Below the pieces are notes generated by a model. The model saw nothing but the letters and a program-made list of their open reading frames with translations, was not told the origin of the DNA and made no database searches. This document shows positions 25,133 through 27,484 of a stretch of 64,000 bases of DNA, in pieces. The translations under genes were made by a program, and so were the position numbers. Where the stretch lies: positions 1 through 64,000 of the forward strand of contig NKIR01000006.1 of the NCBI GenBank assembly GCA_002255985.1, read 5' to 3'. The DNA is from Sphingomonadaceae bacterium PASS1. GTDB taxonomy: Bacteria; Pseudomonadota; Alphaproteobacteria; Sphingomonadales; Sphingomonadaceae. Numbering within the stretch: position 1 is the stretch's first letter; every line of letters begins with the position of its first letter.

Positions 25133-27484
25133 CTAGTCAGGTTTCTTGAGACCAAAATGGTCATGAATTTTGCGGATTTGTTCGACTTCGGTGCTATTTA
25201 GGCCCTTTTCTTTTGTGCCTTCGTGAGCCCAGTTATTTCGCAGTGAAGTGAATATCGACAGCCATGCCAATTTTTCATCCTTGCTGTTAAATCCACGGCC
25301 GATATCTATCCCAAAATGCTTCTCAAAGGTTTCAAACTCTGTGGAATTTTGTAAGTTCTTCGTCCAATACTTTTCTATAATGGTCTTATATTGGCTAAGG
25401 CCAAACATATCCGTCCAAGCAATCTCCTGCCGGCCTAAACCTTGCTTATAACGCTTTTCGATCTCTTCATCGGCTAGTTTCTGACAGTCCCTTTTGATCG
25501 AACCAATTTCCAAGTCCCAGTTATCGCTGAAGAGTTGCTGTAACTGTCCGATTACCCGTCCTTTAATGTGTTTCTCAATCTGAGTTCCCATGGCTCTCCC
25601 GGCGTCTTGGAGCTCTTTATCTTGACGCTCTTTCCAATCCTGAAGTTCGACCGGATTATAATCTTCAAATTTCGAATTGACGAGTGATTGAAAAACCCTC
25701 AGCCAAATATTCTGAGCCTTCTGCCCGTATGAACCTGCAAGTTTTTCATGCGTTTCGGGGGCTATATCCTGAAGCTCTTTGAAAAAAACCAACAGATATT
25801 TCTCAATACACTCAAAGCGAATTTGGCTGGGAGTAGTCGGCGAAAGGTTGCCTTGTTCGGCCTCATAAGCATGCAAACTACCAATAAGGCTGACAAAGGC
25901 GAAAGTTCCGCGGTTCGTCAAAATGTACGTCTCGAGCTGCTCTTTTGGCAGTGTCTCCTCTGCAAGCTCATAGCAGCGATTTATAAACTGAAGCGCTCGC
26001 GTTCTGGCCGCCATCATTTCAACTTCGTGGTCTATGTTGGCGGTATCATAGAGACCAAATCGAGCTGTACTCGAGTCATATTGATTGCCGGAGGCTTTGG
26101 GTAAAAGTGATGACTTTAAAAGCGCATCAATGAATGGCTGCGCTTGCAACAGAGCCTTGTCTTCGCCAAGCGAGACTTTACCAAAAAGTGGGCCTGTCTG
26201 GTCGCCACCCAGCTGACGAATGATTGATGACCTTAGAGCTTTAAGGCGAGTATCTAATCTATTGGAATTCCAGTACAAATCTTCCTCTAACGTTATACGC
26301 AAGGTAGGACTTACCGCTTTTTGATTTTGGTTGATATCCATGAACAATTCGAGCTGCTCGCTTGGAGATAAATCCGCAAAGGCCACGACAGGTATCGTAT
26401 TGTTGTTGCGGTATTGAGAGTTCGCGTACCCATAGATGCGGTGCTGGCCATCGATAATGTAAGCTATGGCATAAGAATTTGGTATTTTCAGAACACCCGT
26501 TCGCGAAATAGATGCCGTTTCCCGCGAGTGGGGTTGAAAGTCCAATTTTGCGTTTTGCTCATTAAAATTGATGATCGCTGAGTTTGGAAAGTAGCCGCCT
26601 TGGTCGATAAACTTGGTAATGCCTTTCAATCTATTTGGAACAAGAAGCCGTTGGTAGGTAGGCATTTCAGCCTCGTTTGCTCTGGTCCGATGTAACACGA
26701 AACCGATCTTTAATAACAAACTAGGTTCAATCGAAAACATATAGTATTTTTTATTACCCATTTTGCCTTCGATGGCTGGTACCTCAATACGCTCTTTATT
26801 GATGGACTGTCCTTTCAATATCATTCCGAGGAACTGATATCGTGCGGCATCTTTATAATGTTTTATTAGGCTTTCGACATAATCAAAAGTGTTGTCGCTG
26901 TAAAAATATCCTCCCGCTTCTTTCAATCTCTTGATGTCGTCGCTGTCTGCTCTCAACATTAGATTGCGAGTTGCAAAAACGTACTTTACCTTGCGTCCTT
27001 TGCCGTACACCTGTTCTAACGCTTTTTTATGACCGTCTAGTCTCAGCCGCAGAGCTTCCATCTCCGTTTTAAAGGATGGTGCCTTATTGCGTTCAGCGCT
27101 TGATTTGCACTCAATTATCAATATTGTTTCGTCATCGACCGCCAAAACATCAATTTGTTTTTTATCCGTCGGCTCCGTCCCAAAGGGCAGCGCTAGGTCT
27201 CGTCCTACATTCAAGGTTCGGTAACCGAGTTTGTGCATCTGGCACCAGATATCATCTTCAAACTGTTGATCGTGGCTTTTTAGTTTACGCAAGCCTGTCT
27301 TGGATTGAAGAGGTTTCCCATAAGTTTCCCAACCCTCATTCAAAAGGGCGTCAACGAGATTATGGTCAACACTTTGCACCATATATTTATTAGATTTTGA
27401 TTTATATAATTTTCCAAGCCACGAGGGATCGGAACTGATCTTCTGCTCAAGGGCTGCAACTTCCGCAGGATCAATAAATGACAT
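25133..27484 (-). CDS. DGQHR domain protein with N-terminal PD-(D/E)XK-like and C-terminal HEPN (Swt1-like) regions (module B)
   Basis: IDVLAVDDETILIIECKSS; AYIIDGQHRIYGY; SLRNNWAHEGT (R-x4-H). Confidence 0.88.
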   Translation of the reverse strand: MSFIDPAEVAALEQKISSDPSWLGKLYKSKSNKYMVQSVDHNLVDALLNEGWETYGKPLQSKTGLRKLKSHDQQFEDDIWCQMHKLGYRTLNVGRDLALPFGTEPTDKKQIDVLAVDDETILIIECKSSAERNKAPSFKTEMEALRLRLDGHKKALEQVYGKGRKVKYVFATRNLMLRADSDDIKRLKEAGGYFYSDNTFDYVESLIKHYKDAARYQFLGMILKGQSINKERIEVPAIEGKMGNKKYYMFSIEPSLLLKIGFVLHRTRANEAEMPTYQRLLVPNRLKGITKFIDQGGYFPNSAIINFNEQNAKLDFQPHSRETASISRTGVLKIPNSYAIAYIIDGQHRIYGYANSQYRNNNTIPVVAFADLSPSEQLELFMDINQNQKAVSPTLRITLEEDLYWNSNRLDTRLKALRSSIIRQLGGDQTGPLFGKVSLGEDKALLQAQPFIDALLKSSLLPKASGNQYDSSTARFGLYDTANIDHEVEMMAARTRALQFINRCYELAEETLPKEQLETYILTNRGTFAFVSLIGSLHAYEAEQGNLSPTTPSQIRFECIEKYLLVFFKELQDIAPETHEKLAGSYGQKAQNIWLRVFQSLVNSKFEDYNPVELQDWKERQDKELQDAGRAMGTQIEKHIKGRVIGQLQQLFSDNWDLEIGSIKRDCQKLADEEIEKRYKQGLGRQEIAWTDMFGLSQYKTIIEKYWTKNLQNSTEFETFEKHFGIDIGRGFNSKDEKLAWLSIFTSLRNNWAHEGTKEKGLNSTEVEQIRKIHDHFGLKKPD

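Follow-up and report, generated by a model that had tools for sequence, protein, structure and literature searches.

A candidate restriction-modification cassette in Sphingomonadaceae bacterium PASS1 pairs a Dam-family methylase with a nuclease-DGQHR-HEPN protein

The window analysed was a stretch of 64,000 nucleotides from Sphingomonadaceae bacterium PASS1 (contig NKIR01000006.1). It contains a composite ORF, here called the effector, whose position and strand were confirmed as given in the initial annotation. The domain order of the encoded protein is PD-(D/E)XK nuclease, DGQHR/ParB-like domain, helical linker and Swt1-like HEPN. A three-part architecture in one polypeptide had been claimed from the sequence and is supported by protein families, an alignment and profiles. 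A methylase gene, absent from the initial annotation, lies 55 bp upstream of the effector on the same strand. The features are as follows.

24438-24519, plus strand: 82-bp imperfect direct repeat flanking the cassette at lower coordinates
25133-27484, minus strand: composite effector ORF, 783 aa, ATG start (ORF list)
25157-25618, minus strand: Swt1-like HEPN domain, approximately residues 623-776 (hhalign to HEPN_Swt1; weak Pfam matches)
25223-25240, minus strand: Rx4H motif RNNWAH, residues 749-754, with R749 and H754 (49 of 75 relatives)
26153-26788, minus strand: DGQHR (DndB/ParB-Srx-like) domain, approximately residues 233-444 (PF14072, TIGR03187; 51 of 51 members)
26438-26452, minus strand: DGQHR motif, residues 345-349 (invariant, 75 of 75)
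26819-27301, minus strand: PD-(D/E)XK (NERD/Hjc/Card1-like) nuclease domain, approximately residues 62-222 (secondary structure of the model, Foldseek, Pfam recurrence)
27104-27112, minus strand: E125-C126-K127 of the D-ExK active site (conservation)
27149-27151, minus strand: D112 of the D-ExK site (conservation)
27257-27259, minus strand: E76, the upstream helix glutamate of the nuclease core (conservation)
27540-28331, minus strand: Dam-family (D12 class) adenine-N6 DNA methyltransferase, 263 aa, with DPPY (PF02086 E 3e-46, TIGR00571 E 3e-63)
28419-28500, plus strand: second copy of the 82-bp imperfect direct repeat, flanking the cassette at higher coordinates; the two copies are 84% identical

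The methylase-effector pair lies in a low-GC stretch downstream of a tRNA-Tyr and an integrase-like ORF, the latter recognized by eye. The 82-bp repeats bracket the two-gene cassette and six copies are present in the PASS1 genome. On contig C15 a pair of copies flanks a 928-aa helicase-like ORF, and on contig C4 a single copy adjoins a transposase-like ORF (both ORFs by eye). A search of 40 further genomes from the family did not find the repeat. Two more proteins are encoded in the same low-GC stretch: a DUF2779 protein (21078-23045; PF11074, E 5e-23) and one that weakly matches T5orf172 (20344-20796).

The central domain of the effector was matched by Pfam DndB (PF14072) over residues 235-398 (E 1e-16, 61.5 bits against a cut-off of 29.1) and by NCBIfam DGQHR (TIGR03187) over residues 237-443 (E 7e-36, 124 bits against a cut-off of 59). 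Scores above both curated cut-offs, together with the motif, place it in the DGQHR domain family. DndB or DpdB proper was rejected as an identity for the protein, the equivalog cut-offs being missed (37.6 against 328 and 63.7 against 300). Motif conservation was assessed in 75 full-length effector proteins of approximately 25-67% identity from several phyla. The D-ExK, DGQHR and Rx4H motifs quoted in the initial annotation are all present and their conservation in these proteins is above chance. The DGQHR motif, which had been called canonical, was invariant in all 75, and R279, N385 and Q388 of the same domain were likewise invariant. These residues correspond to published elements of DGQHR domains, namely the QR pair, DGQHR and FxxxN, which also occur in GmrS (PMC4619093). 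GmrS is predicted to have a ParB/sulfiredoxin fold (PMC4619093).

In the nuclease stretch KKQIDVLAVDDETILIIECKSS, D112 was conserved in 75/75 proteins, E125 in 74/75, K127 in 71/75 and E76 in 73/75. The canonical D-ExK was present in 71 of the 75 full-length relatives. The Pfam models NERD, Card1-endonuclease and Hjc all matched residues 95-166 of the window effector below threshold. These sub-threshold matches recur among the 51 members (NERD in 35, Hjc in 34, Card1 in 30), the best having an E-value of 4e-6 (NERD). Helices and strands of the AlphaFold model follow one another as in a PD-(D/E)XK core; D112 directly precedes one strand, and E125 and K127 lie on the following one. Both the alpha-beta-beta-beta-alpha-beta core and the D...(D/E)xK motif of this superfamily were found in the effector. 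The best Foldseek matches in the PDB were VC1899, Cdn1, Card1 and AF1548, followed by Hjc, FokI and McrC; the probability was near 1 for the best, yet the E-values were 5e-3 or worse. The D-x(n)-ExK nuclease core claimed earlier is upheld by residue conservation and by the nuclease fold that AlphaFold, Foldseek and Pfam support. Lack of the fold and lack of residue conservation were both checked for as grounds for rejecting it, and neither was found. The PD-(D/E)XK fold of the N-terminal domain is well supported and nuclease activity of the domain is likely.

The C-terminal domain had been labelled a Swt1-type HEPN. An independent set of 12 HEPN_Swt1 domains from other proteins was compared to it by hhalign profiles. 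The match was 92.5% with the C-terminal alignment and 94.8% with the full-length alignment (P 5e-7 and 5e-8, respectively), in agreement with that label. RNNWAH of the effector was placed on RNRWAH of HEPN_Swt1. Both the profile similarity and the Rx4-6H motif of Swt1-like HEPN domains were found. Weak Pfam matches occurred among the 51 members (HEPN_Swt1 in 5, HEPN_Apea in 3), with single sequences below the gathering score; relative L003 matched HEPN_Swt1 with an E-value of 8e-4. A separate AlphaFold model of residues 585-783 was all-helical (pLDDT 93.5). Foldseek of this C-terminal model against the PDB gave no significant match and no HEPN. This was not taken as a refutation, since structure matching performs poorly on small helical bundles and the profile comparison gave a positive result. 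The sequence comparisons support a Swt1-like HEPN as the C-terminal domain.

The Rx4H motif was present in 49 of the 75 full-length relatives and was kept in relatives whose C-terminal identity is only 20-24%. On a maximum-likelihood tree its pattern corresponded to two losses, compared to approximately 22 label changes for shuffled labels. One loss falls in two Bacillota and the other in a 24-member clade, which consists mostly of gut Bacteroidales and includes two Clostridia. A second RxxxxH in the effector, RKIHDH at 771, is unconserved and therefore shows what a chance match looks like. The earlier reading of Rx4H as an HEPN site stands for most lineages; it does not extend to all of them, and Foldseek returned no HEPN match. 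Mutual exclusion of nuclease-site and HEPN-site losses was considered and rejected: no protein had lost both, but only about 1.4 would be expected to by chance.

The AlphaFold model of the whole effector, built with 72 sequences, had a pLDDT of 88.7 and a pTM of 0.73. No relative was found by PDB sequence search with the effector and two profiles, and PADLOC and NCBIfam scans contained no dedicated model for it. A Pfam match to a tetracycline-repressor C-terminal domain (E 4e-4, residues 600-659) was rejected as helix similarity because it was below cut-off, lay mostly on one long helix and occurred in 6 of 51 members. DndB reportedly represses phosphorothioation at the transcriptional level (PMC10853773), and by analogy the effector could regulate the methylase with vestigial nuclease domains. 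This is highly unlikely, as D-ExK in 71/75 and Rx4H in 49/75 proteins over approximately 25-67% identity are too well kept for vestigial sites.

The methylase of the window is the only D12 methylase found in the PASS1 genome and its nearest PDB relative is DpnM (2dpm, E 4e-48). Relatives of the effector were collected by a genome scan with a three-sequence profile, which gave 341 encoding stretches; the best 80 were analysed (L005-L084). These best 80 of 341 come from Alpha- and Gammaproteobacteria, Bacteroidota, Bacillota, Campylobacterota, Cloacimonadota and others. At class level any match was found in only 5 of 395 genomes, including that of PASS1 itself and two weak ones, so the effector gene is sporadic. 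No relative was found in viral contigs, and phages gave stand-alone DGQHR matches only. For L031, L035, L073 and L075 the contig begins at the effector or no more than 191 bp from it; these unreadable loci were excluded, leaving 76. Among the best 80 of 341 relatives a D12 methylase adjoins the effector in 72 of these 76 readable loci, and BLAST finds a D12 methylase in 69 of the 80. L053 and L059, where the D12 gene is truncated at the contig start, and L084, which has a different D12 subtype, were counted as linked. The DPPY-type methylase ORF of L070 was recognized by eye. No methylase was seen in the short flanks of L029 and L069, which are readable in part only. L020 has no adjacent methylase and one D12 methylase elsewhere in its genome.

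In most linked loci the two genes are on the same strand and are separated by approximately 60 bp or less, or overlap. The link was kept with opposite orientation in L018 and with reversed gene order in L085 and L086, where effector identity is approximately 27%. DPPY was kept in 71 of the 72 linked methylases. Distances among the methylases correlate with those among the effectors (Mantel r 0.58, 0/2000 permutations), with changes of methylase subtype in some loci. Stand-alone DGQHR loci from four replicons had no annotated D12 neighbor. A methylase linked to an endonuclease, as in type II restriction-modification (RM), was found here with the predicted PD-(D/E)XK effector as the endonuclease. 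Several gut Bacteroidales encode a DUF7226 (PF23871) protein between the two genes (e.g. L044:2583-3035 and L055:8550-8996); this insertion is found in part of the clade without Rx4H. A second DGQHR protein is inserted in L077. In L010, L032, L038, L056 and L077 a frameshift, insertion or truncation has disrupted the effector beside an intact methylase, and the methylases there would therefore look like orphans.

The effector is probably the cutting half of a restriction-modification defense system with a built-in second weapon, as it is almost always found beside a Dam-type methylase in distant bacteria. The initial annotation had proposed that the DGQHR core may sense modification state or a nucleotide and may license either a DNA nuclease or an RNase. 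The sensing of modification state is strengthened by the near-constant pairing with an adenine methylase. It is further strengthened by DndI, in which a DGQQR ATPase lets the nuclease tell modified self from unmodified DNA. The DndI ATPase is stimulated by the self mark, is abolished by R87A and is needed to discriminate modified from unmodified DNA (PMC11662687).

In two relatives encoded on plasmids, L003 and L004, the nuclease site is degenerate (ECR and ECT, respectively) and Rx4H is intact; no D12 methylase was found on either whole plasmid. Loss of the catalytic lysine where the methylase is missing fits a nuclease that is dangerous without it; these are two cases only. The plasmid cluster is conserved between them (L003:7857-16307 and L004:4185-14573) and encodes two GHKL ATPases, a radical SAM protein, a small DGQHR protein, a PIN_8-like protein and the effector relative. 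The combination of radical SAM and DGQHR suggests a nucleic-acid modification or defense system. On a Phyllobacterium plasmid (L002:7953-8696) only the C-terminal part, corresponding to residues 549-780, is present as a separate ORF with 54% identity.

The linkage and the plasmid relatives also bear on a modification-dependent, type IV-like enzyme, in which DGQHR would recognize modified phage DNA and the methylase would have another role or provide a competing mark. The domain is related to GmrS (DUF262) of the glucosyl-HMC-specific GmrSD (PMC4619093), which suits such an enzyme. Near-constant pairing with a methylase is, however, typical of enzymes that need self-marking, whereas type IV enzymes have no partner methylase, and L003 and L004 lost the catalytic lysine where the methylase was missing. 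This reading is quite unlikely.

Four relatives carry a DpnII endonuclease directly before the effector, as follows.

L078:1037-1936, L079:8045-8950 and L080:1015-1926: DpnII endonuclease, after the D12 methylase
L070:8027-8938: DpnII endonuclease

PF04556 identified three of them (E 2e-91 to 5e-95) and BLAST the remaining one, at 72%. Next to the window pair no DpnII was seen. The presence of DpnII in these four suggests GATC restriction. The window methylase, DpnM and Dam have NGL-R-N and FNVP hairpin elements in common. The hairpin reads FNVPIGTNQK in the window methylase and FNVPYGRYKN in DpnM, and this difference of GTNQK from GRYKN means that GATC is not secure for the PASS1 locus. Judged from sequence, the site of the window methylase may be GATC or a related sequence.

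The DpnII-bearing loci do not need the effector as their sole endonuclease, which counts against the RM reading. PrrC guards a type I system. The effector could be a similar guard or abortive protein of an adenine-methylation system, watching the methylase or a restriction enzyme and killing or arresting the cell on phage interference, with an HEPN RNase and a non-specific DNase as its weapons. L070 and L078-L080 already have DpnII, yet they keep an effector with both sites intact. Passages on the Swt1/Abi2 group describe its HEPN domains as of abortive-infection type (PMC3710099). PD-lambda-5, whose component B model distantly matches the methylase, has been described as a compact RM+Abi system (PMC9519451). 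Against a guard, two Bacillota and the 24-member clade, most of it from the gut, have lost Rx4H but still have PD-(D/E)XK, so HEPN cannot be the sole effector family-wide. The methylase-effector spacing in most loci is also too small for another endonuclease gene between them. A guard role is unlikely.

The reading we prefer, and hold to be somewhat more likely than not, is that methylase and effector form a two-gene RM-type defense cassette with a DGQHR-gated DNase and HEPN as an optional abortive RNase. The Dam-family methylase would mark host DNA with N6-methyladenine and the PD-(D/E)XK domain would cut unmarked DNA. The DGQHR domain, modelled on the DGQQR ATPase of DndI, would be a nucleotide-dependent gate that hydrolyzes its nucleotide, reads methylation and keeps the effector off marked self DNA. 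HEPN would be an abortive-infection RNase, its RNA cleavage presumably coming later in the order of events, for failed restriction or an attacked methylase. It is best seen as an optional layer because one large clade lives without Rx4H. The methylase linkage, the canonical nuclease site in 71/75 proteins, the DpnII loci and the gating precedent of DndI (PMC11662687) argue for the RM reading. Besides the DpnII loci, L013 and L033 argue against it, as the canonical D-ExK is absent there though the methylase is present. The short L029 and L069 flanks, in which no methylase was seen, and the doubt over GATC at the PASS1 locus also count against it. The precedent also differs, being DGQQR, HNH and phosphorothioate and not DGQHR, PD-(D/E)XK and m6A. 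More tentatively, it is possible that the single polypeptide gives a two-tier response, in which a DGQHR NTPase reads m6A and licenses the DNase on unmethylated invaders, and then the HEPN RNase upon failure or methylase inhibition.

If the RM reading is true, a widespread "DGQHR domain-containing protein" and an apparently orphan Dam-type methylase are a complete RM-type system, and some Dam-like methylases called orphan would gain a partner. The DGQHR domain, which also occurs in DndB and DpdB, would gain a testable function, namely NTP-dependent reading of self marks. In the effector, restriction and abortive cleavage of RNA would moreover be coupled within one chain. Natural variants without one or other nuclease site make this division of labor directly testable. 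Were the two-tier response true, mark-sensing by DGQ-x-R would no longer be confined to phosphorothioate and hypermodified DNA but would include ordinary methylation of the Dam type.

A nuclease-DGQHR-HEPN chain with a Dam-family methylase was not found in the open-access literature searched. The passages seen of a Prevotella intermedia methylome study characterize GATC methylases and do not describe the effector (PMC5608340). Reviews of Dnd and BREX neighborhoods include HEPN, NERD and ParB effectors in other combinations (PMC10853773, PMC12839542). The methylase pairing and the nuclease domain appear unreported in the open-access literature searched; a ParB-HEPN fusion of this kind has been known since 2013. 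Table 1 of Anantharaman et al. 2013 gives a Swt1-like HEPN fused to ParB (Saro_3948) as "mostly active" (PMC3710099). Like the window effector, that fusion has a DGQHR/ParB-type domain and a Swt1-like HEPN; the passages of the source that describe it contain no mention of an N-terminal PD-(D/E)XK domain or of pairing with a Dam-family methylase. L003, unlike the window effector, has a degenerate nuclease site and another gene cluster. Its organism is Novosphingobium aromaticivorans, to which the Saro prefix presumably refers. Going by this prefix, Saro_3948 is probably the L003 effector relative or a close protein.

DndB, DpdB and DGQHR_dnd_1 have the DGQHR domain family in common with the effector. 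They are parts of phosphorothioate or deazaguanine systems. In the effector they match residues 233-444 only, and every score falls far short of the equivalog cut-offs. The DpnII/MboI type II RM systems (GATC) resemble the window in that its methylase is nearest DpnM in the PDB and four relatives carry DpnII itself. The DpnII endonuclease is unrelated to the effector, which adds DGQHR and HEPN domains. The component B model of PD-lambda-5 (RM+Abi) matches the window methylase (E 5e-8), and a combination of modification with an abortive effector is proposed for both; the window effector itself had no PD-lambda-5 match in the PADLOC scan. DndI/SspE differ in using phosphorothioate, HNH and DGQQR, where the window has methyladenine, PD-(D/E)XK, a DGQHR domain of the DndB family and an extra HEPN. 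Like the window effector, they combine a DGQ-x-R domain and a nuclease in one chain encoded with a DNA-marking system.
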